Source: Liolophura sinensis (lineage: Eukaryota > Mollusca > Polyplacophora > Chitonida > Chitonidae). From it: a DNA stretch of 64,000 nt. Shown here one piece after another: positions 9,796 through 57,500 of this stretch (position 1 is its first letter; each line of letters begins with the position of its first letter). The notes under the pieces were generated by a model that saw only the letters and a program-made list of their open reading frames with translations, did no database searches and had not been told where the DNA came from. The stretch spans positions 19,255,764 through 19,319,763 of the forward strand of contig NC_088306.1 of assembly GCF_032854445.1 (NCBI RefSeq). The letters run 5' to 3'. The translations under genes and the position numbers were made by a program.

Positions 9796-10263
9796 CTTGG
9801 TGCTAATATTTATAAAATACAAATCCCTTGGATTTGGATCTCATTAAATGCCTGGTGTTAACATTTACGCTAAAGAAGTAGTACACATCCACTTCTGCGT
9901 AGTGCAGAGTATTCCGTGCTTGTAAACAGCTTGGAACCGAATTGTGTAGGCGGGAAATTCCGAAAGCTCGCACCCATGCGGTGGGGATCACAGTATATAG
10001 TTCTGCAGTAAAACATTTTGCTTCTGCACAACAGAATAATTACAAAGTGCCAGCTATTTGGATTTAATCAGGGCCAGTACAAAGTGCTACCTCGCTGAAG
10101 TATCGCACCAAAGAACTGTGTACCAATATAACATGTACATGGTATATACACTGTTTAACCCTCTGTTTTTTTTTTGTTTTTTTTTTCAAGTATATTTAGT
10201 TAGTGAAGCTAACTGTTTTGAGTATTTACTTTTCTTTCCCTGACAACCACTAATGCAACAGTA

Positions 10264-13200
10264 TCATCTTTGATCAATATTGCTTTCAACTTTCTTGAAG
10301 TGGCGTAACAAAAGCAGTGGTAATACAGACGCCATTAGTGAGCAGACCAGAAGGATTACCCAGGCCCACCAAAAGCACTCACTCCCGTAACACACGTTAG
10401 ATTCCCCTGTTCTGTTGTCCGAAGTAAACTGGTCGTAAATTATGCCAGTCATTAAGCTAAATACTAAGCCGAATGCTTCAAAACAGGTCATCAGTATGCC
10501 TTGTACCATAGCAATGTGCCTCAAGCCGAAAATATTCGCGCTGAAGTTGAGATAAATTGAAAGGCCTCCTCCATTGGTCAGACTGGTTAGAATGCTCGAG
10601 ATGAAAACAAGGACGATGTTATTCACAGTCATCAGCATGACTGCAAACGAGAAGATATTACACACAGCCACGGCAATGATGAGGTACACCTTACTGCTGG
10701 CAGTTTTAAAAAAATCGTAAAGAACGCCTGAGGCGAGATTAGACACGGCCACGGTTAGCAGCATTGTGACTATCAAGCTGTCTTGGTACTGTCTCAGTCC
10801 AAGTGACTGCAACAACAGGCATATGTCTGTAAAAGCCAACAAGTTAGATGCGAGTATTATAGCCCCTGACCAGAGATAGAGGTGAAATTTTCCCGATAAA
10901 AACATTTCGTACACAGAAATATTCTCAACGCCTAATGACTCTTGTTTTTTCTCCTCCGCCTGCTCCCTCTTTGACAGTAGCCCGCCTTCTGTGGAGGAGG
11001 GACAAAAGGAGTTGCTGTCCGTGGGCGGTCGGCTCCCTTCCTGGTAACATGACCCCAGCTCGAGGAATTGATCTTCACGGAACGTTTGGTTCCCCCCGGT
11101 CAACAGGTGCACCGCCAGATACACGACAGCGCCGACAACGAATACTCCCAAGCACGTGAAGAAAAACGCTGCCGTTTTCGTCGTGTCAGCGAAATGCGAG
11201 TGGTAAAATGGCGCCACAAAGACTTCTCCAAAGAACATCATGGCGGCAGTGCAGCTGACGGCTTTTCCCGAATGGACAGTTGGAGTTGAAGTCATGGCCG
11301 TCAGAAGACACAAGAAGAGGATCCCACACCGTCCAAGAGCTGGTGGGTGGAGAAACAGAAAGGGATCCCATAAAAACCCTTATCTTGATTTGAATATCCC
11401 ATGACCCTTTGCCCATACCGCTGTGTGGACCAGAATAGGCCCCTTGTTTCTAGCTGACATAATCATCGCATGGACTAGAATAGGTCCCTTGTTTCTAGCT
11501 GATATAATCATCGCATGGACCAGAATAGGCCCCTTGTTTCTAGCTGACATAATCATCGCATGGACTAGAATAGGTCCCTTGTTTCTAGCTGATATAATCA
11601 TCGCATGGACCAGAATAGGTCCCTTGTTTCTAGCTGACATAATCATCGCATGGACCAGAATAGGTCCCTTGTTTCTAGCTGACATAATCATCGCATGGAC
11701 CAGAATAGGTCCCTTGTTTTCAACTGACATAATCATCGCAAGTTCCTTGTTTCTAACAGATTTGACCGTGGTATGGACTAGAACAAGTTCCTAGTCTTTT
11801 TTTATCTGCATTGATCTGCATTTATCTGTAGCGTGGACTAGAATATGTTCCCAGTTTCTATCTGATTTGACTGTTGTGTGTAGTTTCAAACGGACTTCAC
11901 TGCGCCATGTATCAGGACAAAGCCCTTGTGTCTTACTGACTGGATTGTGGCATGAACAATAATACGCCCTTTGTTTCTAATGTGACTGTTCCACGGACCA
12001 GAAAAATCCCTTGTTTCTCGCTGCTTTAACCGTGCCAGGGATCAGAATACATCCTAGCCTATGTTTGATCGGTACGTAGACCAGAATAAGTCCACTGGTT
12101 CGAACGGAATTGTACATCGATGGAATGATTTATTTATTTCCCCTTGGCCATTGGTGTTCGTGGGTTCGAATCCAGTTCAGTGTTACAAAAAAGCAAACCA
12201 TGGAGTTTGTGACAACTGCCTTATAAAGCAGATGCCTTGAAGGAAAGGATTTTTCATCAAACGTAAAACCAAAATCATGTTACGACATAAAGAGGAATGA
12301 AAACAAACATGTTAAATAAAAAACCTCCGTTATGATGGTTTCAAATTACAAACCGTCTACTTACAAAACAAGAACATGTATATGTAGAGAAGCACGGGGT
12401 GTCCAAGGTAAGACTCCGGCATCATGGCCGCAAAGGCTATCAACAGGAAACCGGAACATGTAAGGAATGTGCCAAAGAGGAATGCTGGGTAATAACCGTA
12501 TTTCTTGTGGATGATGGAGAAGGGCAAGAACCAGTAAATGCTGATGATGTGTACACCGCTGAGTATTCCAACTGAAATGAAATCACAGGATAATGCATAA
12601 GGAATTTATTTATATATTTATTATTTCAATTTCAAACTTTCTTTCAACGTGCATCCAATTGAAGAAAGCATGTTTAACAAAAATTTATTTTCTGTGAAAT
12701 TATGCTTGTACTATGTTTGAGTTTCTCCATGAAACTCATATTTACATACCTAAAACAACAAAAACCGCTGAGCGTAAGTTTACTGTTTTCCTGACTCAAA
12801 ACCACTGTCGGAACTGCGTGAACTGGATTCGAACCCGTGACCCCATTGGTCAAGTGCCTATCCGCTATAGTGAGAATGTCACCTCAGATGAACGGTGTTT
12901 TCACATAGCCTAGGATGCTTAGTTCGCGGATGTATTTGTGTAAGTAATGAATCATAGCGATTTGTCCATTTACTCGCTATATCGGACACACGCAGCAGCC
13001 AGCAGTCTAAAGATTCTCTACCGGTACCTTTTGTGAGTCGCCAAAACATTAAAATGAGTTTTCAATGATTCAGGTCATACGACTCAATTTTCCGAGTTGA
13101 ATGGGTTGCCAAGGACGGATCCGACCCAAGTTGTGTGCACTATGTGCGCGAAACTTTACTTTCTTGGACACAGAACGTGATGAATGAACGACACAGGCCT

Positions 13201-13921
13201 GGATAAAGGTTCCCCAATAATTGAAAAAGCGGACCTATGCCTTTTTTTTTAGATGTTCAAAAGATTCGTTGATTTATTTATTTATTTATTTATTTGATTG
13301 GTGTTTTACACCATACTCAAGAATATTTTATTTATATGACGGCGGCCAGCATTATAGTGGATATAAACTGGGCAGAGCCCGGGGGAAACCCACGACCATC
13401 CGCAGGTTGCTGCCAGACCTTCCCACGCAAAAGATTCGTCGACGACGGCTTATTATGACCAATGCCATATAAAAGCAGTGAGAGCGAGGAATCTATAAGT
13501 TCCCTGTCCAAGACCGGGTTTGAACTCGCACCACGTATGCTTAGGGCTTTCAGGTGATACTGTAATATTTACACTATTCACAGGTGAGTGTATTTCCTTG
13601 GTGTAACCTTCTAATATAAACTCATGCAGCAAGTAGGAAACGCCGTTTCACACCAACAATATGCTAACGGCATATTAAAACTTACCTTCAGTCTGTGTGA
13701 GATGAAACAAAGCTTTAAGTTCTATGTAGAAGGCAAAGTCAATCCCACCCCAGCACAGAGCCAGCGACATGAAACAGCCTGCCAGGAATTGGCAAAGAGC
13801 TGTTAGAAAAAAACAAAACAAAAAAAAAAAACAAACCAAAAAAAACAGCACACTATTAAAATATAGCTCTGTTCTCCGTTTCCCTGTGATTTCACTCTAC
13901 TTATAAACATGCAGGTGTGGT

Positions 13922-13992
<71 letters not shown>

Positions 13993-15404
13993 GCTTTCTG
14001 TGGCCCGTTGAGCCGACAGACCTGACTATGCGCCATGTCTGCGAACCTATGCGAGATATCTGCGACATAGCAAATAGCGTAAAATCACGCCACTTCATCG
14101 CGTTAGTAACGACAGCCCTCACTCTGTCTCCTTCTCGTTCTGCGACATATTTAAATTAACAACAAGTCAATACAGAAAAATCTAATACACACATGGTCTG
14201 GACCTGTACAACGTTTCTAATACAAGCATGGTCTGAACCTGTACAGCGTTTCTAATACATACATGGTCTGGACCTGTACAACGTTTCTAATACATACATG
14301 GTCTGAACCTGTACAACGTTTCTAATACATACATGGTCTGGACCTGTACAACGTTTCTAATACATACATGATCTGGACCTGTACAACGTTTCTAATACAT
14401 ACATGGCCAGAACCTGTACAGCGTTTCTAATACATACATGGTCTGGACCTGTACAACGTTTCTAATACATACATGGTCTGGACCTGTACAACGTTTCTAA
14501 TACATACATGGTCTGGACTTGTACAACGTTTCTAATACATACATGGCCAGAACCTGTACAACGTTTCTAATACATACATGGCCAGAACCTGTACAACGTT
14601 TCTAATACGTAGGTGGTCTGGACCTGTACAACGTTTCTAATACATACATGGCCAGAACCTGTACAACGTTTCTAATACATACAAGGTCTGGACCTGTCCA
14701 ACGTTTTAAAGCTTCAGGTCTTAAATCTGATTTACACTCTCCCCTTCAACGATGTTCTTCCTGACCTCGTTCATAAGTTATAACCCTTCTTATCATTCCT
14801 TTGGTCAACAGGTTATGGTATTTTTGCTGGCGAGCGGTTTTAATTGTGACCTGATGTTCAGTTTAATTCAATATCTTTTATTTATACCTCTATAATTTCG
14901 CAAATGCCCATGTCACAAAATTACATGGGCCACAAAAAAAAGCAACATATGTACTCTCAATAAAATAATCTGTTAAATTTAACAGAAAGACTGTTGAGTC
15001 TGGGATGCTAGAATGTATTCTCTTAATGCAGTAGATTATTCTGTTAAATAGCACACCTATTCTATTAATTCAACATAAAGATTGTATTAGACTAACTGGA
15101 TGTAATGTTGAATATGACACGTTATGTTATGATACCACAATACATTCTCTCTTCACTCAGACAATAGATTTTTTTAGTGTCTAGTCAAATATCACAGATG
15201 GGGAAACCTTTTCAGCATAGTTTTCTAAATATATGGATATACGCATATTGCTTTGAATTAAAAGCTGATTTTGCTACAAAATGTCGTATGTATTACTAAC
15301 AGATCCTATTTAAATGTTGGCAGATCAAGCGAAAACAACTTACCTTGTTTTGTATTGACTTTGGGGCTCTTAGCTGCCAGCAAATTATCCCCCTCATCCG
15401 CCAT
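10264..15404 (-). CDS. Major facilitator superfamily transporter, 485 aa, four exons, complete
   Basis: Minus-strand exons 15344-15404 (ATG at 15404, MADEGDNLL), 13686-13799, 12365-12571 and 10264-11339 (TGA at 10264) join phase 1-1-1 with GTAAGT donors and give 486 codons including stop. The protein has a short hydrophilic N-terminus, six hydrophobic helices, a charged central loop of about 60 residues (QEGSRPPTDS to SKREQAEEKKQES) and six more helices, including NGGGLSIYLNFSANIFGLRH and VLPLLLL near the end. That is the 12-helix MFS plan with cytosolic central loop. Within the MFS it looks most like the Nodulin-like/MCH1-like or monocarboxylate-type group, but I cannot assign a subfamily or substrate. 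Introns are repeat-rich (45-bp array, SINE, TA run, 35-bp array, MITE). No clear AATAAA follows the stop within 400 bases. Confidence 0.85.
11424..11745. repeat. 45-bp minisatellite, 7 copies, in MFS intron 3
   Basis: Near-identical 45-bp units (GGACCAGAATAGGTCCCTTG, then CTAGCTGACATAATCATCGC) with alternating substitutions that suggest a two-unit (90-bp) higher-order repeat at the left. Decayed relatives continue to about 12120. The array lies 85 bases upstream of the exon 4 acceptor on the coding strand. A unit length divisible by three creates long spurious frames on both strands. Confidence 0.93.
13270..13430 (-). mobile_element. SINE-A, 3' part, minus strand
   Basis: TTTATTTATTTGATTGGTGT start (reverse of the AAAT tail) through GGGGGAAACCCACGACCATC and GGTTGCTGCCAGACCTTCCC. 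The tRNA-like head is missing. Confidence 0.85.
13924..13989. repeat. (TA)n microsatellite, about 33 repeats
   Basis: Uninterrupted TA dinucleotide run in intron 1 of the MFS gene. It is likely polymorphic and can form a cruciform. Confidence 0.95.
14185..14705. repeat. 35-bp minisatellite, about 15 copies, MFS intron 1
   Basis: Units TCTAATACATACATGGTCTG plus GACCTGTACAACGTT. Two unit types alternate (GGTCTGGACC and GGCCAGAACC). Confidence 0.92.
14952..15182. mobile_element. Tc1/mariner-type MITE, copy 2
   Basis: Same family as 8221-8480: starts TACTCTCAATAAAATAATCT and shares the interior block with AGATTGTATTAGACTAACTG. The right end has decayed. Confidence 0.65.
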
Positions 15405-33028: not shown

Positions 33029-33910
33029 TCAGTCTTGCTCTTCCTGTTTAACGTCCTCATGTCTTTCTGGGGAACCGTTCTTCTCTGGGGTTGCAGACTT
33101 GGAACGAGATCTCGACTTGGACTTGGATCGACTTCGGCTTCTTGATTTACTCCTGGATTTGGATTTGGATTTCGACACAGAACGGCTGCCCTTTCGGTCA
33201 TGATCTCGATCTCGGCCTCGACTTGGGCTACGGCTCGCACTTCTACTCCGGCTTCGACTCTTGCTGCGGCTTCTGCTTCTGCTACGTCTGGACCTGGACC
33301 TGGACCGACTTCGGCTGCGCGATCTGCTGCGGCTGTCACTGCTCCTGCGTTTTCTAGATGGTTTGTCCTCGACCAGACGAATTCGTCTACCATTTAATTC
33401 AGTATCATCAAGTTTGTCAATTGCATTTTTCATATCCTTGTAAGTAGCAAATTCAACAATACCTTCGTTACGACGCTGTTTGTGAGCGTCAGCGTACGTG
33501 ACTTCTCCCCCCTGGCGTACATAGTCCTTGAGATTCTGCCAACTCACGCCAGATGACAAATTTTCAACAATCACTCGGAAATCTGTTCTGCTCGGTGGAC
33601 CATACTTGTCCCTGCCTCGACCACCTCGTCGACGAGGTGGGAAGCCCCAATCTCTCTCTCGTCGATATTCGTCGCCCCTGGACATCCCTCGTCCCCTGGC
33701 ATGCTCCACTACAACCCTCTCGCCACAAAGCTCTTTCCCATTGAGCTCATAAACCGCGTCGTCGGCGTCTCTGTAATCGTCAAACTCAACAAATCCATAA
33801 CCGTTTTTCAACATCAAATCACGGATTTTACCATAGTTCCTGAAAAACCTTTCGACATCCTTCTCCCTGGTATGGTACGACAATCGCCCGATGTACACCC
33901 TCGTGCCCAT
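33029..33910 (-). CDS. SR splicing factor, SRSF4/5/6 (B52) type, 293 aa, intronless
   Basis: A single open frame from ATG at 33910. Residues 1-75 are a canonical RRM: RNP2 VYIGRL near the start and RNP1 NGYGFVEF in the middle. A glycine/arginine linker ([12 protein letters not shown]) leads to a second, pseudo-RRM at about 105-175 carrying [11 protein letters not shown], the family's SWQDLKD signature with N for D. From about 185 to 265 there is an RS domain of nearly continuous Arg-Ser/Lys-Ser repeats, and the tail is acidic (EDVKQEEQD). It would bind exonic enhancers and act in constitutive and alternative splicing in the nucleus. The start was chosen because RRM1 begins directly after MGTR; upstream in-frame codons look like leader. 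Relatives usually have several coding introns, so the uninterrupted frame is notable. Confidence 0.92.
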
Positions 33911-39500: not shown

Positions 39501-42500
39501 GTCTTATGTTTTCCTCATCAGATCTGGCCCATTGTATTGACCTCATGTTACCTGCGACACTCCCCTCCCATTCTGGCGGCAAGAGACAGGGGCAGACAAC
39601 TGAGGAATGGGTGGATAAGGCCACAATGACCTGCATTGTAAGAGTAAAGCGGGCTTTGGCCTTAAGGTGAGTATTCAACATATTATATGTAACAGGGTGT
39701 TATATATAAACGCTATCTACCTCTGGGATAGAGGGAATTTCCCTTTAACCTAGTAGTAGAAGCGTGGACTCCAAATCCCCAGCTAGTAAGCCTCGTCACA
39801 TTTGGCGCTGCGAGCAGGGTTGCTGGGGTGGCCGAAAAAGTAGGCCTTGATGCTTTAGCGGACCCTGTGTAAGTTGAACTCCCCTTTCCTGGGTGGGCAT
39901 GACTAGGAAAGCTGGCTCTGAATGTACCTTGGTGATATATAAGCACTAGCTCACTTTGGGCTGGAGGGAATTTCTTTTTGGCCAAGTGGTAAATCACTAG
40001 TTCAAATCCCCAGCTGGTAAGCCTCATCACATATAGTATACTATATATTTGACCTAAAATTTTGCATTTTTACAAATGACTGATTTTGCTTTACATTTAT
40101 GCATCCACCTTATATTGCCACTTAAGAGTTTTTGGTGAAGTTGATTAATTTCTTATCAGAAAAAAACTTTAATATTAATTGACATCAAAAATATCATTTT
40201 AAGGTGCTTTTATGCTTCTGGAAGTGCATTCCTAAAGCTTGCCACTATCACACAAGTGCAAAATTCTTCAGTGTGTCATTAAATAACAATCAGTCAGTTA
40301 GTTTGCCTATCCTCTGAGCAGTGATAATATCATACAAATTGTCTCAATTATGCTTTTTTCAGGTACCCGTGTCTCATTGAGGTGTTGTTTGAGGCTGCGT
40401 TACCCTATGCTCTCTGGGCAAGGGGCCAAGTGAAGAGAGCAGCTGAACTCTTCTTACACCTGTCAGAACAGCAGACAGGTAAGTACTTTTCTTACCTTTC
40501 TCTCTCTGGGCACAAGGTCAGGTGAAGAGAGCAGCTGAACTCTTCTTAAAACTGTCAGAACAGTAGACAGGTAAGTACTTTTCTTACCTTTCTCTCTCTG
40601 GGCACAAGGTCAGGTGAAAAGAGCAGATGAACCGTTCATACACCTGTCAGAACAGCAGACAGGTAAGTACTTTTACCATTCTCTCTCTGGGTATAAGGTC
40701 AAGTGAAGAGAACAGCTAAACCGTTCTTATGCCTGTCAGAACAGTAGACAGGTAAGTACCTTTCTTACCATTCTCTCTCTGAATACAAGGTCAGGTAAAG
40801 AGAGCAACTGAACTCTTCTTACACCTGTCAGAACAGCAGACAGGTAAGTACCTTTCTTACCATTCTCTCTCTGGACACAAGGTCAGGTGAAGAAAGCAGC
40901 TGAACTCTTCTTACACCTGTCAGAGCAGCAGACAGGTAAGTACGTTTCATACCATTCTTTCTCTGGGTGTAAGGTCATGTGAAGAGAGCAGCTAAACTCT
41001 TTTTACACCTGTCCGATCAGCAGATAGGTAAGTGCTTTTCCTTCTTAAATGTTTGCTATGACGTCACGCTGTTTGTCTGAGCAGTTGATTATTTTTCAAG
41101 AATGCATGCTTTGGAGTTAGTAGTTTGAGTGGTGAAGGGTGGCAACTTGTACCACCTGAGTGTGCGTCCATTTGATGTACGGTAGAGTGGGACTCAAGCC
41201 AATGCTCACAATGCTTTAAAACTTTCCAATATCCCCCTGAGCTATCAGGGAAGACCACACAGCCTTCTCCTTGTAATCGACTTAAAATGTTTGTTGTAAT
41301 CCTTTGTCTAACACCAGACTACATAATGCACTAGTCTTTGGAAGGGACTCATGATAATGTCATCAGGCGTCGCCTACAATGCAAACTCACACGGAACCTG
41401 TATGTAACAACAAAGTGATAACAAAAACAGTTATGAATCCATGGCAGGCACATATGGCAGGTGGTTTTCAATTAGCTCAATACGGTTTAAATATACGGCA
41501 CTTCTGCACTGATTTTGGCACACCTGTAATTTTCGTGTCCAGTGGCATTTTGTTTTGCATTTTCTCAAGCACAGCTGGCTTTGACAGATCAGCTTGCAAC
41601 ATACAAAATCCATGATTTTCAAAAAATTCTAGAAAACTAAAAAATTGTAGGTTCTGTAGCCCAGTTTATCAGAAACTCGCTTCTCTTTTATTTGTAATTG
41701 TTTTCAAGATGAATATATGCTATAACCTGAAAAAAGATTGGAAAAAATGTGAGCATTTTGGCTTAATTGTAGCAGTTAGTGGCAATACCTTCTAAGCGGT
41801 CAACTGCCAATGAAATTTGATTACAAAACATAGGTATGGTAAAATTAATTAGGCTTGATTGCATGTCCTATATTTCTTAAAAAATTCATGCCTTTTCTGT
41901 CTTACTGCCACTGTCAAGCCCTTGACCTTGACCCTTGACCTTGACCCTTGTTTTTAGTCTTTTAAGCCAGATTAATTAATTTCAGGTACTCTGGCTTCTT
42001 CCACCCATAAACCTGACTGTTGTCATCTGTTAAAGTCAACATTTCTTCATTAGAGCGTCAAACAGTGAAATCAAATGAACAAAATGAAGAAGTTGGAGAT
42101 TTTCCTGGACTTTTTATAACAGATCCATGCGGTTCATGTCATTGTTGCTCTAATCGGTTTGACTTGTGCTTGTTCTGTTCAGCCTGTAACCCTGGCTACA
42201 GAGCCACCCATCTTAACGAAGCAGGCAGGCTGTACGCCCAATTTGGTGAGCTGGCTATGGCAAGAAAGATGTACCTGAGAGCTGCCGAGCTGTGTTGCCC
42301 AGGAACATCAGACGATGTACGTCAAGCTCTCATTGGTCAAGCCATGATGTTGGTAGCCAATCAAGAGGACACTGGGTAAGTCATGTAAATGTAGGGCTAT
42401 ATGGATGAATTGGGCGTCCATGGGATGATGGTAGTACCAGTGGAGAATTTGGCCAGTCCATTGAAGCTAAATTTTTGTGGCCAGGCCAAGGAGAATCTGG

Positions 42501-45500: not shown

Positions 45501-48500
45501 TACCTGGGGCCGATTTCACAAAGCCATTTCTGACTTACGTCAAAATTGGAAATACGATCGTCCACTTGACAAATGTGTCCAAAATTCAACTTCCATTACC
45601 AAAATGTGCCCATTTTGAAGAGGTTTTAAATTTTCACTTAAGTTAGGACACAACAAGACTGTGATCCTTTGTCCATTCCTGTGGAAGTTCAGAATACACA
45701 AAGATCTTTTATTTACATCTTTATTAATATTCATCTGTCTGTTAATTGTGTGATGTCCACATTACTCTTGCGTTCTTTACCAAGTTTCAAGAGAAGTGGG
45801 CTGTATGACTGGGTCATTATTAAGGTACATATCTTTTAATTTCTAAACACACACGAGATGCGAGTTCAATCCTTGGACAAAAAATTTGTAGCTTCTAGCT
45901 CCTGTTGGGGCCTCCATGGCTCATTTAGTTAGCGGGCTTGCGCAGTGTAATGACCCAGCAGCCTCTCCCCAATTCGGTCGCTGTGAGTTCAAGTCCAGCT
46001 CATGCTGGCTTCCTCTTCGGCCGTACGTAGGAAGGTCTGCCAGCAACCTGTGGATGGTCGCTGGCCGCTGTCGTATGAGTGAAATATTCTTGAGTATGAC
46101 ATAAAACACCAATCAAATGAATAAATAAATCTAGTTTCTGTCTTTGGGTACTGATGGGTGACAATAAATAGTTGATGACACTTGTTGCACATCATGACAT
46201 TTGTTGAAAACCACATAACTAACTTGCCAAAGGTTGGTGGTTGATACTCAGGACAATCCTGTTTCCTCTACCCATAAAACCAACCGCCATCATATAAGTA
46301 AGACATTCCTGAGCATTATGCTAAAACTACGATCAGATCAAATCAAGTTACATGTATCTTTGGAGCTATATATGACCAAATTTTACCAAATGTATTGAGA
46401 AGCTGGTAGTTATTTATTTATTTATTTATATGATTGGTGTTTTACGCCGTACTCAAGAATATTTCACTTATATGACGGCAGCCAGCATTATGGTGGGTGG
46501 AAACCGGGCACAGCCCGGGGGAAACCCACGACCATCCGCAGGTTGCTGACAGATCTTCCCACTTATGGCCGTAGAGGAAGCCAGCATGAACTGGAACTTA
46601 AGCGGCCTCATTGGTGAGAGACTCCTGGGTTGCTGGTAGTTATATCAACTGCCTGAAGACATGCCTAAAAATGGCATATCCTCATCTATTCATCCATCTT
46701 TGATTACATTTTTGAATTAACCCTGACTGTTGCTTTATAGATTGTCTATTAATTCACAGTCATTGGTATCCACATGTCAGGTGGGGCAAGATCGTGAAGA
46801 TAAAAGGGTTTTCATCAATGTGGTAAATAACCTGACATTGCATTTAGAATGAAGTTTTATTGAGCTAATTAAAAAAGGTGATTTAAAGTTTGTCTGATAT
46901 TCTACCAGGAAAGTTAAATGTTTCAACACCAGTTTTATTTTATGACATTTATTTGCCTCTAAAATGCTGCTTTGTTTTGCATAGTTTTAGATCCTTTATA
47001 ATAGTATCTGTTAAGTCTGGATTGTTCATCAAGATGTAAACATTTGTGTTGATGCATTTTATTTGTTTTTTGTAATTTTTTTCTGTTTAACTACATGTAT
47101 ATGTATATGTGAACACTCTATGTATGCATGATATGCAAAATACAATCCAGGTGTAAAAACTACTGTAGTTTTGATATTATTTCCATCTCTAGTCTTAATC
47201 TTTTATAGTTTCGTGTGATTCACAACCAAAACCATCTTTACAGTTTATTCAAAGTAATCCTTGGTTGTAACTTGTTATATGCTCTCTTGCTTCATGAGTT
47301 TGCTATACACCTGATTGCAGGCTGGTATTGATATACTTCTGATTGCAGGCTGATATTGATATACATCTGATTGCTGGATGATATTGATATACATTTGATT
47401 GCTGGATGATATTGATGTACTTTCTGATTGCTGGATGATATTGATGTACTTCTGATTGCTGGATGATATTGATGTACTTCTGATTGCAGGCTGGTATTGA
47501 TATACTTCTGATTGCAGGCTGGTATTGGTATACATCTGATTGCTGGATGATATTGATGTATTTGTAATTTCTGGATGACATTGATATACTTCTGATTGCT
47601 GGATGATATTGATGTACTTCTGATTGCAGGCTGGTATTGATATACTTGTGATTGCTGGATGATATTGACATACTTCCAATTGCGGGATGATATTGATGTA
47701 AATCTGATTGCAGGCTGATATTGAATGTTTTTCAGGACTCGTTTACATGACTTGGACTTCCTACCTGGCCAGCCTGCACATCCACAACGAAATTACACCC
47801 CTTGGAAACCAATGGTTGACATGGTGAAGAAACATGGCCAACTTCCTGTGATAAAGTTGCAGTGGAGGACTCAGTTGTGTCACCCCATTTTCAATCATGA
47901 AAGCAAAGGGTAAGAAGGTTTTCTGGATTTGAGATTACTTGGTTTTATATCTTATGTAACATAGCAGTATGATTCTCAACATGGCATATCACAAGGAATT
48001 TAATACGCTTAGCAAAATGGTTGTGAAGGTACAGTGGGAAATAACAAACCCTAGTTCTTGTTACATTGGCAACATCGCACACAGAGTTGATGCTGTCTTC
48101 CACTCAGGCACCTCGTTAAATGTCCTGTGTTAAAATATAAAATGTCAAAAATGTGACAGTCCCACAACTGACTGACAGAGAGAGAGAGAGAGAGAGAGTT
48201 AAAGATCTGCTTGTCTGAGCAAGGCTAGAAAGGTACATTTATGTAAATTTTTCTTTATAGTGACCTGTATCAGATGTGGCAGTGGTTTTGTATTTTACAG
48301 CTGTTTGTGACCTGTCAATGGTTTTGTATTATAAGGGGGCCGTTTGTGAGTTGGCAATGGTTTTGTATTATAAGGGGCTGTTTGTGAGTTGGCAGTGGTT
48401 TTGTTATGTAGAGGGCTGTCTGTGACATGGCAGTAATTTTATATTATAGGGGGCTGTTTGTGAGGTGGCAGTGGTTTTGTATTATAGGGAGCTGTTTGTG

Positions 48501-51500
48501 AGGTGGCAGTGGTTTTGTTTTGTAGGGGGGCTGTTTGTGAGGTGGCAGTGGTTTTGTTTTATAGGGGGCTGTTTGTGACCTGACAGTGGTTTTGTATTGT
48601 AGAGGACTGTTTGTGACCTGGCAGTGGTTTTGTATTGTAGGGGGCTGTTTGTGAGGTGGCAGTGGTTTTGAATTATAGGGGGCTGTTTGTGAGTTGGCAG
48701 TGATTTTGTAATGTAGAGGGCTGTTTGTGACATGGCAGTAATTTTATATTATAGGGGGCTGTTTGTGAGGTGGCAGTGGTTTTGTATTGTAGGGGACTGT
48801 TTGTGAGGTGGCAGTGGTTTTGTATTAGAGAGGGCTGTTTGTGAGGTGGCAGTGGTTTTGTATTGTATGGGGATGTTTGTGAGGTAGCAGTGGTTTTGTA
48901 TTATAGGGGGCTGTTTGTGAGGTGGCAGTGGTTTTGTATTGTATGGGGCTGTTTGTGAGGTAGCAGTGGTTTTGTATTGTATGGGACTGTCTGTGAGGTA
49001 GCAGTGGTTTTGTATTATAGGAGGCTGTTTGTGAGGTGGCAGTGGTTTTGTATTGTAGGGGGCTGTTTGTGAGGTAGCAGTGGTTTTGTATTGTATGGGG
49101 CTGTTTGTGAGGTAGCAGTGGTTTTGTATTATAGGATTCTGTTTGTGAGGTGGCAGTGGTTTTGTATTATAGGATTCTGTTTGTGAGGTGGCAGTGGTTT
49201 TGTATTGTAGGGGGCTGTTTGTGAGGTAGCAGTGGTTTTGTATTGTAGGGGACTGTTTGTGAGTTGGCAGTGATTTTGTAATGTAGAGGGCTGTTTGTGA
49301 CATGGCAGTAATTTTATATTATAGGGGGCTGTTTGTGAGGTGGCAGTGGTTTTGTATTGTAGGGGACTGTTTGTGAGGTGGCAGTGGTTTTGTATTAGAG
49401 AGGGCTGTTTGTGAGGTGGCAGTGGTTTTGTATTGTATGGGGCTGTTTGTGAGGTAGCAGTGGTTTTGTATTATAGGAGGCTGTTTGTGAGGTGGCAGTG
49501 GTTTTGTATTGTAGGGGGCTGTTTGTGAGGTAGCAGTGGTTTTGTATTGTAGGGGACTGTTTGTGAGGTGGCAGTGGTTTTGTATTAGAGAGGGCTGTTT
49601 GTGAGGTGGCAGTGGTTTTGTATTGTATGGGGCTGTTTGTGAGGTAGCAGTGGTTTTGTATTATAGGAGGCTGTTTGTGAGGTGGCAGTGGTTTTGTATT
49701 ATAGGGGGCTGTTTGTGAGGTGGCAGTGGTTTTGTATTGTAGGGTGCTGTTTGTGAGGTGGTAGTGGTTTTGTATTATAGGAGACTGTTTGTGAGGTGGC
49801 AGTGGTTTTGTATTATAGGGGGCTGTTTGTGAGATGGCAGTGGTTTTGTATTGTAGGGTGCTGTTTGTGAGGTGGTAGTGGTTTTGTATTGTAGGGGGCT
49901 GTTTGTGAGGTGGCAGTGGTTTTGTATTGTAGGGGGCTGTTTGTGAGGTGGCAGTGGTTTTGTATTATAGGGGGCTGTTTGTGAGTTGGCAGTGATTTTG
50001 TAATGTAGAGGGCTGTTTGTGACATGGCAGTAATTTTATATTATAGGGGGCTGTTTGTGAGGTGGCAGTGGTTTTGTATTGTAGGGGACTGTTTGTGAGG
50101 TGGCAGTGGTTTTGTATTAGAGAGGGCTGTTTGTGAGGTGGCAGTGGTTTTGTATTGTATGGGGCTGTTTGTGAGGTAGCAGTGGTTTTGTATTATAGGG
50201 GGCTGTTTGTGAGGTGGCAGTGGTTTTGTATTGTATGGGGCTGTTTGTGAGGTAGCAGTGGTTTTGTATTGTATGGGACTGTTTGTGAGGTAGCAGTGGT
50301 TTTGTATTATAGGAGGCTGTTTGTGAGGTGGCAGTGGTTTTGTATTGTAGGGGGCTGTTTGTGAGGTAGCAGTGGTTTTGTATTGTATGGGGCTGTTTGT
50401 GAGGTAGCAGTGGTTTTGTATTATAGGATTCTGTTTGTGAGGTGGCAGTGGTTTTGTATTATAGGATTCTGTTTGTGAGGTGGCAGTGGTTTTGTATTGT
50501 AGGGGGCTGTTTGTGAGGTAGCAGTGGTTTTGTATTGTAGGGGACTGTTTGTGAGTTGGCAGTGATTTTGTAATGTAGAGGGCTGTTTGTGACATGGCAG
50601 TAATTTTATATTATAGGGGGCTGTTTGTGAGGTGGCAGTGGTTTTGTATTGTAGGGGACTGTTTGTGAGGTGGCAGTGGTTTTGTATTAGAGAGGGCTGT
50701 TTGTGAGGTGGCAGTGGTTTTGTATTGTATGGGGCTGTTTGTGAGGTAGCAGTGGTTTTGTATTATAGGAGGCTGTTTGTGAGGTGGCAGTGGTTTTGTA
50801 TTGTAGGGGGCTGTTTGTGAGGTAGCAGTGGTTTTGTATTGTAGGGGACTGTTTGTGAGGTGGCAGTGGTTTTGTATTATAGGGGGCTGTTTGTGAGGTG
50901 GCAGTGGTTTTGTATTGTATGGGGCTGTTTGTGAGGTAGCAGTGATTTTGTATTGTAGAGGGCTGTTTGTGACATGGCAGTAATTTTATATTATAGGGGG
51001 CTGTTTGTGAGGTGGCAGTGGTTTTGTATTGTAGGGGACTGTTTGTGAGGTGGCAGTGGTTTTGTATTAGAGAGGGCTGTTTGTGAGGTGGCAGTGGTTT
51101 TGTATTGTATGGGGCTGTTTGTGAGGTAGCAGTGGTTTTGTGTCATAGGGGCTATCTGTGACCTGGCAGTGGTTTTGTAATGTAGAGGGCTGTTTGAGAC
51201 CTGGCAGTGGTTTTGTATTGTAGTGGGCTGTCTTTGACATAGCAGTGGTTTTGTTCTGTAGGGTACTGTTTGTGAGGTGGCAGTGGTTTTGTTTTAAAGG
51301 GGGTGTGTGTGTGACCTGACAGTGGTTTAGTATCATAGGGGGCACTCTGTGACTGGGCAGTGGTTTTGTAATGTAGAGGGCTGTTTGTGACCTGGCAGTG
51401 GTTATGTATTGTAGTGGACTGTTTGTGAGGTGGCAGTGGTTTTGTATTGTAGGGGGCTGTTTTTGACCTAGCAGTGGTTTTGTTCTGTAGGGTACTGTTT

Positions 51501-54500
51501 GTGAGTTGGCTGTGGTTTTGTTTTAAAGGGGGTGTGTGTGTGACCTGGCAGTGGTTTAGTATCATAGGGGGCTGTTTGTGACCTGACAGTAGTTTTGTAT
51601 TGTAGAGGGCTGTTTGTGACCTGACAGTGGTTTTGTATTGTAGGGGGCTGTTTGTGACTGACATCTCCTGCTCTGATCTCTCTCTGCACCTTGATGCTGA
51701 CGGGAACCTGACAGGAAACCTCCAGATGCTGCTTCCACCAATGAGGACGATCCGTTTGGACCCATTCACAGGGTAGGTATTTAGGTAAAGTTGGGAGTTA
51801 GCCAGAAATGTGAAACAAGCTTGTCCAGTCAGCAGTTTTTGACGCCATCTGAAGCAGGTTGTCTAGGTTTCCTTTTCTCTGATTTCTTGTTCCCATGTGA
51901 AAATAAGGAATCTAAAATCCAAGATTTATGTTGTGTTTTACTGATGAAGACATTAATGAAGAATCCAAAAGTGGAATAAATATAAAAATTAATTTTTTTT
52001 TTTTCATGGCTGTTCGATCATAAATATATCTTCAACAAGTAAAATGCTGGGAGACTCCATATTTTCCTCAGATATTTAAGTTTTATTTTTATACCCACTT
52101 GAAAAAGATTTGTTCTGCCCGTAAAACAACAACTTAAATCAGTGTGGCCTAACCCTACATACTCTATGAGTTAATGAAGAAGAAATCAAAAAACATGAAG
52201 GAAACGTCATCCAAAGGACCATGGAAAAATCTATTTAAAAAAAACATTATGTTTGTAATGATTTTTAAAGGTAATTACATTTTTTTTACTGACAAAAGTG
52301 CAGTATGTGAACTGATCAGATCGTATGGTGGAGGATATTGTGTCACTTTTTTCTTTTTTTTTTTTGTCCTTTGCATAATGTTATAATCTACAATATATAT
52401 ACCTCATTATAAAGAAAGCTGTACATGTTTTTGCAACGGTACATATACATTTAATATAACATGGAAACAGTTAATTGATGTATATATTTCACCAAAATGT
52501 AATGTGTGAAGAATTTGGGGCGAAAAAAATGCTTTCGCTTCATTGTACCAAAATATTGCTCAAAGTCCACCTTTTCAGTCTGACTAACATATAATGGCAC
52601 TTTCCTCATTAATAAAAATCTTAAAAATTAGTACATGTATTTCCTCATGATCCTTCTGATGACTGTTAGCTCACTTTTCTCCTCCTTTAAGTTACTGCAC
52701 AGTACTGGTGAGGTGCCCCTAATATTTATTCATTTATTTATTTGATTGGTGTTTTACGCTGTACTCAAGAATATTTCACTTATATGACAGTGGTCAGCAT
52801 TATGGTGGGAGGAAACCAGGTGGAGCCCAGAGAAAGTCCACAAGCATTCTCGGGTTGCTGGCAGAACTTCCCACTTACAGAGAGGAAGCCAGCATGAGCT
52901 GGACTTGAACTCACAGTGACCATATTGGTGAGAGGCTCCTGGGTCATTACCCAATGCTAACCAGCTGAGCCACAAAGGCCCCTAGGTGCCCCTAATAGGT
53001 CAGTTATCTTAAGTGCTGTCCTCAGGTCTGAATTGTTAAAAAAACTAGTGTATTATCTTATACTAGTATAAAGTCATATTATATATTTACGTTTTTTTAG
53101 CAAGACCCAGCAGCCAATGCAGGTGTATAGAGACCAAATGGAAAAGCAGCAATCATGTAGTTCATATTTACAATATACCGATACACCATTATTTTTGGGC
53201 CAGATGCAAAACTGATTACTTGGCTTGCAGTTGATATATGTAACTAGATCTTCTATTCTTACAATAATCCATTCGCAGGTCTCTTGCTTTCCCGTCTGTG
53301 CCACTGCACAGTGAAGTTTGGCGGCCTGGAGTATCAGCTGACCAATCAGAACATTCTACTGGTAAGATCTCTTTCAATATTCAGAGACCGGCCCCGCTAG
53401 CATAGTTGGTAGAGCGTCCACTTCGGGAGCGGTAGGTCCAGGGTCAATCCTGGGACGAGTCACGCCTAAGACTTTAAAAGAGGAAGTTGCAGCATGAAGG
53501 GGATATTGCAACTACTGTTTGACCCGTATCAGTATAATGGCTTGGGTAAGGCCATTACTTGGCTTCGGTAAGGTGTCTCATTGAAGCAGCACTAGATAAA
53601 AGAGCGGTGGAAATCTCTCCTGTGCTCTAAGGTTTCCTTTGTCGCCATATGACTGAAAAAAAATTGTTAAGTGCAACGTTAAACCCCAAGCACTCACTCA
53701 CTCACTTACAACAAACATGTGACTTGGTCAAGGGCCGATTCCACAAAGCCATTTCTGACTTGAGCCAAAATGTAGAACATCTTCACAAAGATTTAATAGT
53801 ATTTGGAACCTGAAGTTGAAATTTTGACACGTTTATCTTAAGACAACATTTAAGCAGGGGTTAAACTTTTACATACTATGTCCTATACATAAGCTCTAAA
53901 ATTGCATTTCAAATTTTAACATAAGTCAGAAATGGCTTTGTGGAATTGATCCTTGTTTCAGGAGTGGGGACGTTTGTTAGACACTGGTGAAGGACTACAG
54001 TATTTTATGAATTCTTTCACCCACAAATTGACTGCCTTCTTATAGGTGAATTACCTGTATTCTGTGGTGTTTTAAGGGTTTTTTTTTAATGTATCTTTCA
54101 GTGTCTTCTCCGATGACAGTGTTGTTGTTGACTGAAAGAAGCACACCACCTTTAAATAATGTACACATCATCTGAAGGGCCATATCTAGATGATTCCAAA
54201 TATGGTTTTCATAATTTTCCATACATTTTTTTCTGTATAAAATTATAAATAAAAAATATAAAAAACAAAATAACATTGAGGTCATCTATATATCACGCAT
54301 GGGATAGTTTCCTCCACCCATAAAACTGGCCGCCATCATGTAAAGTGAAAAATTCATAGCTTTAGTGTTGAACAACAGTCAGGTGAAGTCGTAAATGCAT
54401 GAAACAGACCAAATACGTTTGTTGCAGATTACCTCCTCTTGCCTCAGCAGAGAGAAGTGTTCAGAGACTCCTGTGGTAGGACAGTTTACCTGTTGCTGAC

Positions 54501-57500
54501 CAGCAAGCTAAGGTATGATAAACGTGAGTGGAGCAGCGATGGTACTCAGACTGCAGTCCTAACCTGGCATTGTCCACTCTCTGGTCAGTGGGTCAAGCTG
54601 GATCTCCGGAAAACTCTGCGTCAGCACATTAAACAGGTAAAGAATTTCAAGTTTTTGTACATCAGCTCCACCAGAGGTTGCTTCATCTGGATGTACCTGT
54701 TTAATCACAGCTATGATGTGTTGATACATTTATTTATATATTTGGTTGATATTTAATTTGGTAATTTTTCACTATATGAACATGGTGGGGGCATCCGTGG
54801 CTGAGGTGATTAGCACATCAGCATGGTTCAATGACCCAGGAGCCTCACATCACCAGAATTAACTCAGGAAAATATATTTCTGTTTTCCCAATTTTCTGTG
54901 AATTCTTTGTTGCGAGATTGAATTTCGCCAATGATGCTTTGCCTGAACATTTGTCTCATGCAAGAGGCATTTAAATGCTTTCCTTCATTGTATTTATTTG
55001 ACATCATGCTGAAAATTTTTTCACTTTGTGCGCAATGATGTTCAGGCTTACATGTGGGACAATTGAAACGGAGGTTACACATCTGCTCCTGGGCCCATTT
55101 GTGAAAAGCAGGGCAAACTTCCTGACGTGAAGCTGCAGCCAAACCAGGGAGAGCTGAAAGAATTTCCATCAGAATCTATCTATAAATAAACTATGACAAC
55201 TATGTCATATTCAAAACTATGGATGTTTGCGATTATCAGATAACCATCATTGACAGAAATATGATTAGGATTGGTCAACACTGGTGTTTCCACAAAATCA
55301 TAAGCTGACTAGGTGAGGAGCTTAGCTATGCCGTAACGCTTTGACAAAAACATTATAAAGGGAGGCTACTCATTTGTTCCTACTGTAGACATGTTTAGAA
55401 CTGGGACAATTTTCTTTTGTTTATTTAAATATTTTATTTTATAGGTGCTTTACTCAAGATAATTTCACTTATAGAATTGCGGCCTGTATTATGGTGGGTG
55501 GAAATTAACCCATATTCTTTTGTTTATTTAAATATTTTATTTTATAGGTGCTTTACTCAAGATAATTTCACTTATAGAATTGCGGCCTGTATTATGGTGG
55601 GTGGAAATTAACCCATATTCTTTTGCTTCATGCTCTGTTCTGTTGTTCTGTTGTAGAAAATAGCCGATACCATACGAAAGGAAGAGACGGACATTACAGA
55701 AATGAGTCAGCAGCTTGAAGCTTTGGAGCTGTTTCACAGCTCGGGATGGGCAGTCACGTCGAGGGTAAAATTGGATATATTTATTTATAAAGTCCAGGGT
55801 TGGTGTTACATTAAAGTCATATTCCACAGACTCTTAACTTCGTGATTTTTAAGATCTTTCTTTTCAAAGTCATCAGGATATTGTCCTTATGTAATCAAAT
55901 ACTTCTGCATTCTTATAAAAAAAACAAAATTTATGTAGCTACAGACATGTACGAATTCAGAATAATCTCTTAAAAGTGATCAGTTTGGTGTCCCACAAGG
56001 TATAATACTTTTTTTAGTCCAGGGGCCTGATTTACAAAGCAGTCTGCTGCTACCTCCCAAGGGATTCAGTACTGAGTTGCTAGAGCAAGGAAACAGGACT
56101 GGTTGGCCTGGTTAGCATGGTGTCAGTATACTGTGACTGGGAGGGGTTTCATGTCTGGTGTCTTTGGCTTGATACTTCAGTGGCGGCGGCACTTTGGCAG
56201 CATCGACTCGTCCTGCCACAAGAAGACACAATATATGACTCCTCCTGGTCCGTATGACTGAAAAATGTACAACATTAAACCCCAAGCATATGTGCAAACC
56301 TATATGCAAAGCAGTCGCAAATTGCGACTAACGTAACTTCCATGGTGTCCCCAGGGTAATTGCACCTGGGACAGAGTTGGTACACTTTTTTAAATGTGCT
56401 CCAGATGGTATTGAATTATTGTCAGGCATGTCTCAGGAAAATGGAAATGAAACTGAGTTTTGTAATCTAGTACTTATAAAATCATAGTTACATTTAAGCA
56501 TAGGGTACCCAAAGCCGCTTAATACAAGACATATAAATGTACAAGTCACGCCGTAGAAATGGTCTTATGTAGCAGGTGAGTGAGTGAGTGAGTGAGTGCT
56601 TGGGGTTTAACGTCGTACTCAACAATTTTTCAGTCATATGACGACGAAGGAATCATTAGGGTGCATGCACGTGTAATGTGCCTCCTTGTTGCAGGACGGA
56701 TTTCCACCGCTCTTTTATTTAGTGCTGCATCACTGAGACGACTTACCGAAGGCAAGTAAGCCGCCCCGCCCGAGCCATTATACTGATACGGGTCAACCAG
56801 TCGTTGCACTATCCCCCTTATGCTGAACGCCAAGCGAGGAAGTTACAACTTCCTCTTTTAAAGTCTTAGGTGTGACTTGACCAAGGATTGATCCTGGATC
56901 TACCGGTCCCGAAGCGGATGCTCTACCAACTGTGCTATCCGGGCCGGTATATGTAGCACGTAGAGCCTCTGTGAAAGCTACGTTGCTTAATGCAATATTG
57001 TGACTTGTAACGAACGGAAATGTTTTCAAATTATCTACATCACAGTACAATGTACAAAAATCATCATTTACTATCCTTCTTTGAAGTCATAAATGTAGTT
57101 GTTTGCAAGGTTTTAGGTGGTTTTATTTTTTTATCTTGCAGGCAATTCGACAATATGTTTCTCATCAGTGGCAAATGGTAAATGAGATGGCGAAACTGGA
57201 AAGGAAGGGATTTACAAAAAGAGCCAAGAAAACAGGTGACAGATGTCGCAAGAAGATCTACAGTGAATCAGCATCTGGGAACGTATTCAGGTTAAAGGTG
57301 TCCCATCACACCCAGGTGGGGCAGATGCTTGTGCTACAGATGAGTTCCATGACCGTCAACACAAACAACAAGGACAACATTTGTGTGGTGAGTGCAAATC
57401 TAAAGCTCAGTTTGTCTGTTGGTTGGTTTGTTCAGGTCAGGTTTAATGCTGCTTTCAAATGAATATTGGTCTCTTCACAACACTTTCTTTCATTTTATTG

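Follow-up and report, generated by a model that had tools for sequence, protein, structure and literature searches.

In the chiton Liolophura sinensis, the tandem array that begins at the end of exon 4 of a 16-exon gene is very probably a minisatellite that arose across the junction of an exon with its intron, i.e. a structure of the kind called a "mirage", and not a set of working extra exons. Since its exon-like copies have been changing like neutral repeats, a boundary-duplicating minisatellite is the most likely explanation, and a second, larger array is found in the same gene at exon 9. In both arrays the repeated unit lies across an exon-intron boundary, as these boundaries are placed by our gene model. 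All positions given here are those of the window, by which we mean the whole 64,000-bp stretch of DNA that was analysed.

The model of the host gene consists of 16 exons, chosen by eye from splice signals, which extend from 36583 to 62072 and join as one open frame of 1089 residues; as no stop ends this frame in the last exon, the model does not reach the 3' end of the gene. The 15 introns measure 557-3734 nt, and exon 4 (40363-40478, + strand) is joined to exon 5 (42183-42375, + strand) across the junction 40478-42183. When the product was searched against Pfam, only TPR matches below threshold were obtained, among them one to TPR_12 over residues 415-474, around the exon 4-5 junction (E 0.26, under its cut-off). 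This lends slight backing to a claim of the sequence-only reading of this locus, namely that the repeated segment is itself a helix of a repeat region. A PDB search with the first 696 residues gave no match up to E 0.1, and no paralogues were found by a genome search with a 338-residue part of the product, all nine matches falling at the locus itself and three of them being copies in the array. Upstream of the gene, and in the opposite orientation, there is an open frame (33029-33910, minus strand) that resembles a splicing factor of the SR type; RRM is matched twice in it, and SR proteins are among its best PDB matches. Elsewhere in the genome, a region of molluscan haemocyanin was recognised, with eight matches to the mollusc beta-sandwich family. 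The species name attached to the assembly has been amended from L. japonica to L. sinensis (PMC12441733).

Tandem Repeats Finder (TRF) describes the exon 4 array as a 92-bp unit present in 6.9 copies (40410-41040, + strand, score 905). The unit corresponds to 68 nt at the 3' end of exon 4 (40411-40478), which are the source of the exon-like part of the array, followed by approximately 24 nt of intron 4; exon 4 itself is placed by the 16-exon open frame and by alignment. There are seven AGGTAAGT donors, at 40479 (copy 0, the true GTAAGT donor of exon 4, 40479-40484), 40571, 40663, 40752, 40844, 40936 and 41028, and AG/GTAAGT is intact at every one of them. The sequence-only reading had described six repeats of the exon 4 end and its GTAAGT at 92-bp spacing, and this is what we observed, apart from a single interval of 89 (92, 92, 89, 92, 92, 92). 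Its description of the copies also agrees with ours: in each of the six, AAG stands immediately 5' of a 54-nt block that is followed by a donor, and alignment of the blocks places their entry and exit in phase 1, the phase in which exon 4 ends, so that each block preserves it. Translation of the blocks gives variants of GQVKRAAELFLHLSEQQT and confirms that four are open and two carry an in-frame TAG. The open ones, all on the + strand, are block 2 (40609-40662, donor 40663), block 4 (40790-40843, donor 40844), block 5 (40882-40935, donor 40936) and block 6 (40974-41027, donor 41028), the last of which has the highest-scoring acceptor among the six; the TAG is found in block 1 (40517-40570, donor 40571) and block 3 (40698-40751, donor 40752), on the same strand. 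Neighbouring copies leave 38 nt between a donor and the next block, as had been claimed, and the same distance separates the true donor from the first block, the exception being the 35 nt before block 40698. Pairwise identity among the six copies is 80-90% over 82 columns, and their identity to the parent is 83-90%; with such values the array is neither a chance resemblance nor an exact repetition. Its DNA had a single match in the genome, in a search of one assembled haplotype that scored the best candidates and skipped very common words.

The second array of this gene sits at the acceptor end of an intron instead of the donor end. According to TRF it comprises about 89 units of 38 bp (48276-51657, + strand) and runs into exon 9 (51644-51772, + strand, as placed by the 16-exon open frame), the last copy holding TTTTGTATTGTAG and then GGGGCTGTTTGTGA, i.e. 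the acceptor and the first 14 nt of the exon. Its sequence is unrelated to that of the exon 4 array, although the anatomy is the same. We examined the nine bases before each of 90 anchors in this array, one of which is probably spurious (spacing 17/21), and found YAG at 72, another AG at 5 and none at 13. Between 48270 and 51646 there are 183 YAGs, and 182 of them lead to a premature stop, so that only the one at 51644 keeps the frame open. Neither this larger array nor the lancelet precedent discussed below was mentioned in the sequence-only reading of the exon 4 array.

In the exon 4 array, splice-like signals (AGGTAAGT in 7 of 7 units) were found together with change of a non-coding kind. 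Among the six blocks we counted 22 distinct events, of which 7 are synonymous against 6.4 expected, and one stop event against 1.4 expected. The corresponding dN/dS is about 0.89; a value of 0.3 or less is rejected (P 0.012), whereas 0.5 is not rejected (P 0.14). Coding constraint on the 54-nt blocks was therefore not detected by synonymous counts or by dN/dS among the six copies, and these values do not bear out purifying selection on the block peptide. Variable columns are about as frequent inside the blocks (19/54) as outside them (9/28, P 0.81). The conservation of phase is unremarkable, since a block simply copies the exon tail, in which phase is kept wherever the distance from an AG to the donor is divisible by three; a copied exon tail would retain the frame by chance in about one out of three cases.

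The boundary-duplicating minisatellite may have formed as follows. A 92-bp segment covering the 3' part of exon 4 together with the donor would have been duplicated in tandem toward the intron, which would give the seven units of the present anatomy, and slippage or unequal exchange would have made the array grow. Of these units, the first would have stayed the coding end of the exon, the six others being intronic and, as the substitution pattern suggests, drifting. Judging from the open frame, in the usual transcript the acceptor at 40363 would be paired with the first of the seven donors (40479) to define exon 4, and the entire array would be removed along with intron 4. Leaky use of a later donor has a defined outcome: with each of donors 2-7 the frame meets a stop at residue 453, and such transcripts would probably be subject to nonsense-mediated decay. 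With this stop and the probable decay, leaky use can be expected to cost output rather than to make a new protein.

One may also consider that the array acts on splicing, i.e. that there is competition for U1 from the six additional strong donors, or that these form a cluster of decoy exons, so that productive splicing of intron 4 is lowered according to copy number. Such donor competition is possible, although we give it a small chance, and it is the more serious of the two ideas put forward in the sequence-only reading, because the true donor is equalled by five of its six copies. We scored splice sites with a small weight matrix derived from 14 splice sites of the gene itself. Six of the seven array donors, the true donor included, are CAGGTAAGT, at 11.8 bits, and the seventh, which is the last, scores 9.4; the best donor elsewhere in the gene also reaches 9.4 bits, so that the five identical copies lie above any donor of the gene outside the array. 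Rarely spliced decoy exons that bind splicing factors have been described in human OGT and other genes (PMC12017769). The intact AG/GTAAGT sites are a hint of donor retention: their invariance at all seven donors has P 0.029 if these eight columns are specified in advance, and P 0.66 if a run of eight invariant columns anywhere in the array is allowed. Against the idea, no class of columns in the array is unusually conserved outside the donor, and arrays of this sort in lancelets are reported to go with normal mRNA (PMC3087553, PMC3902484). An extension of this idea, to which we give a smaller chance still, is that the seven exon 4 donors and the acceptor array of about 89 units at exon 9 together form a copy-number-tuned brake on the gene, with array length varying between individuals; since every wrong site examined leads to an early stop, the length of the arrays would then set the yield of productive mRNA.

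That the blocks are working cassette exons, at least one of them being spliced in to add 18-residue copies of a TPR-like helix, is decidedly unlikely. Frame and phase do fit, and inclusion of any one of the open blocks (40609, 40790, 40882 or 40974) keeps the frame and gives 1107 residues; four spaced pairs of open blocks give 1125 residues each, and the triple inclusion of 40609, 40790 and 40974 gives 1143. Single or spaced inclusion would leave introns of at least 127 nt, but none of the gene's 15 introns is shorter than 557 nt, and four or more open blocks out of six are expected under drift alone (P 0.885). All six block acceptors are AAG, whereas the 15 real acceptors comprise 12 CAG and 3 TAG, and five of the six score under every real acceptor of the gene. 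Relative to 950 intronic AGs, the block acceptors fall at percentiles 48.9, 48.9, 58.5, 38.2, 21.8 and 82.9, as opposed to 82-100 for the real ones, whose scores run from 1.4 to 12.8. In four of the blocks there is, moreover, a CAG five bases downstream, the use of which would shift the frame. The exception is the acceptor of block 40974, which at 1.6 lies just inside the lower limit for real sites, level with the weakest real acceptors; this score and the failure to reject a dN/dS of 0.5 are among the points that speak against a mirage. Copy by copy, a donor is present in 6/6, an open frame in 4/6, and an acceptor within the real range, according to the 14-site matrix, in 1/6. Thus, the isoforms with extra helices proposed by the sequence-only reading stand as far as the frame of the four open blocks is concerned, but "ready-made cassette exons" is an overstatement, since the AAG acceptors are mostly below the real range and the blocks show no detectable constraint.

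Recursive or dual-specific splicing, in which each CAG/GTAAGT would double as an acceptor and the units would be removed stepwise (leaving the final mRNA unchanged, since the same donor is rebuilt at each step), is exceedingly unlikely: AGGT is indeed present at 7/7 junctions, and tandem AGGT sites are reported to act both ways in UBC (PMC10809524), but when the seven array AGGT sites are scored as acceptors with the 14-site weight matrix, they reach -7.4 to -8.9, where real acceptors have 1.4 to 12.8, and by this measure they do not appear competent in the manner of UBC; the pyrimidine fraction before them is 0.38-0.56 against 0.56-0.94. An assembly artefact is scarcely credible, since, although tandem arrays are prone to misassembly and coverage is given as 14x, the PacBio HiFi reads used are reported to average 8,347 bp, far more than the 0.63-kb array (PMC11068029), and the copies are 80-90% identical instead of exact.

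Two boundary arrays in one gene might suggest something more than chance. The window is rich in minisatellites, with 18 merged arrays (period of at least 15) covering 10,246 of its 64,000 bp, and when the gene's eight arrays were placed at random, with at most 70 exonic nt permitted, the probability that at least two of them would intrude on an exon by 10-70 nt was 0.26. For comparison we sampled 60 loci elsewhere in the assembly and in the window, 30 with RRM matches (the best 30 of 146) and 30 with PDZ matches (the best 30 of 70); these represent 57 distinct regions, as L004, L006 and L016 overlap, as do L018 and L031, and one of them, L029, is the SR-type gene within the window. An array across an exon edge was found in none of the 60 loci, exon edges having been mapped by eye, and for L033, L048, L060 and L061 only. 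Two loci had an array overlapping the open frame of the match: in L057 it is a Lys/Glu-rich repeat within the frame, and in L061 it was read as intronic. Arrays lay within 150 nt of the match in L033, L048 and L061, and these, as well as that of L060, were judged intronic by eye. Nine of the RRM loci (L009, L010, L013, L014, L017, L021, L023, L024 and L030) share a two-copy tandem duplication of 240-242 bp, mostly some 260 nt from the edge of the match, as if they all derived from a single mobile element, which makes the RRM half of the sample weak. The sample thus indicates that edge-crossing arrays are uncommon, within its small size, and that two in one gene may exceed chance. Nevertheless, taking this result with the P of 0.26, the birth of minisatellites near boundaries, filtered by selection against exon damage, appears to be enough; a special tendency of this gene to acquire boundary arrays is neither shown nor excluded.

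The closest match to the chiton arrays is found in the mirages of lancelets (amphioxus), minisatellites that duplicate intron-exon boundaries and that have been reported in Adh3 and in the globin genes BflGb6 and BflGb9 (PMC3087553), and in the troponin C and PGBD5 genes (PMC3902484). As in the chiton, the unit of these tandem arrays straddles the junction of an exon with an intron, which may be at the 5' or the 3' side, and splice signals are repeated with it; the chiton case differs in its host, in the gene concerned, and in having an additional array of about 89 units. For the Adh, globin and troponin C mirages the mRNA is reported to be undisturbed, with cryptic use being possible (PMC3087553, PMC3902484), and for the PGBD5 array normal mRNA is the inference of its authors (PMC3902484). 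Length variation, too, is reported for some lancelet arrays, whereas the chiton arrays are described here from one assembled haplotype. Human UBC resembles the chiton array in the tandem repetition of AGGT sites, but its units are described as coding, 228 nt long and frame-neutral (PMC10809524), whereas the chiton unit is 92 nt (2 mod 3) and intronic, and its AGGT sites are poor acceptors. The decoy exons of retained introns in OGT and other genes also present exon-like splice signals within an intron; they are reported to bind splicing factors and to be seldom included, and their effects on intron retention were tested in that work (PMC12017769), so that they may be regarded as a functional analogue for the donor-competition idea. 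In the Rogers model, introns are gained by tandem duplication of AGGT (PMC3087553), and here too a segment with splice signals has been duplicated, except that in the chiton the intron was already present and no new intron is seen. Among molluscs, a 27-bp minisatellite has been reported in an abalone gene, located inside an intron and not on a boundary (PMC6905558), and no earlier molluscan case of a boundary minisatellite was found among the matches listed in our literature search, as judged by titles and abstract openings.

With the chiton gene, the known range of boundary-duplicating minisatellites would extend beyond lancelets to include a mollusc. It holds both a 5' array, with seven donors, and a 3' array, with YAG at 72 of 90 anchors, and because the six wrong donors and the 182 wrong YAGs are all truncating, the two arrays offer a natural test of choice among near-identical splice sites. 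They also bear on the possible origin of new exons or introns from minisatellites, and they represent a hazard for annotation, where copies in a boundary array may be taken for exons.

The remaining arrays of the 16-exon gene do not overlap any of its 16 exons. One of them, with 15 copies of a 28-bp unit (47300-47724, + strand), ends 11 nt 5' of exon 8 (47736) without entering it, and its units bear CTGAT-like and TTGCAG-like motifs that, by eye, resemble a branch point and an acceptor. Another, at 55412-55625, lies 31 nt 5' of exon 12 and consists of 2.1 copies of a 103-bp unit at 100% identity, which looks like a recent duplication. In the sampled locus L060, the array at 2001-2862 has a unit that on the minus strand resembles TTTACAG/GTAATGAG, i.e. 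a repeated acceptor-donor-like motif away from an exon. Finally, the minus strand of the window carries a transporter-like gene (10200-15400) with arrays at 11426-11740 and 14181-14706, which, with exons placed by eye, seem to be intronic.
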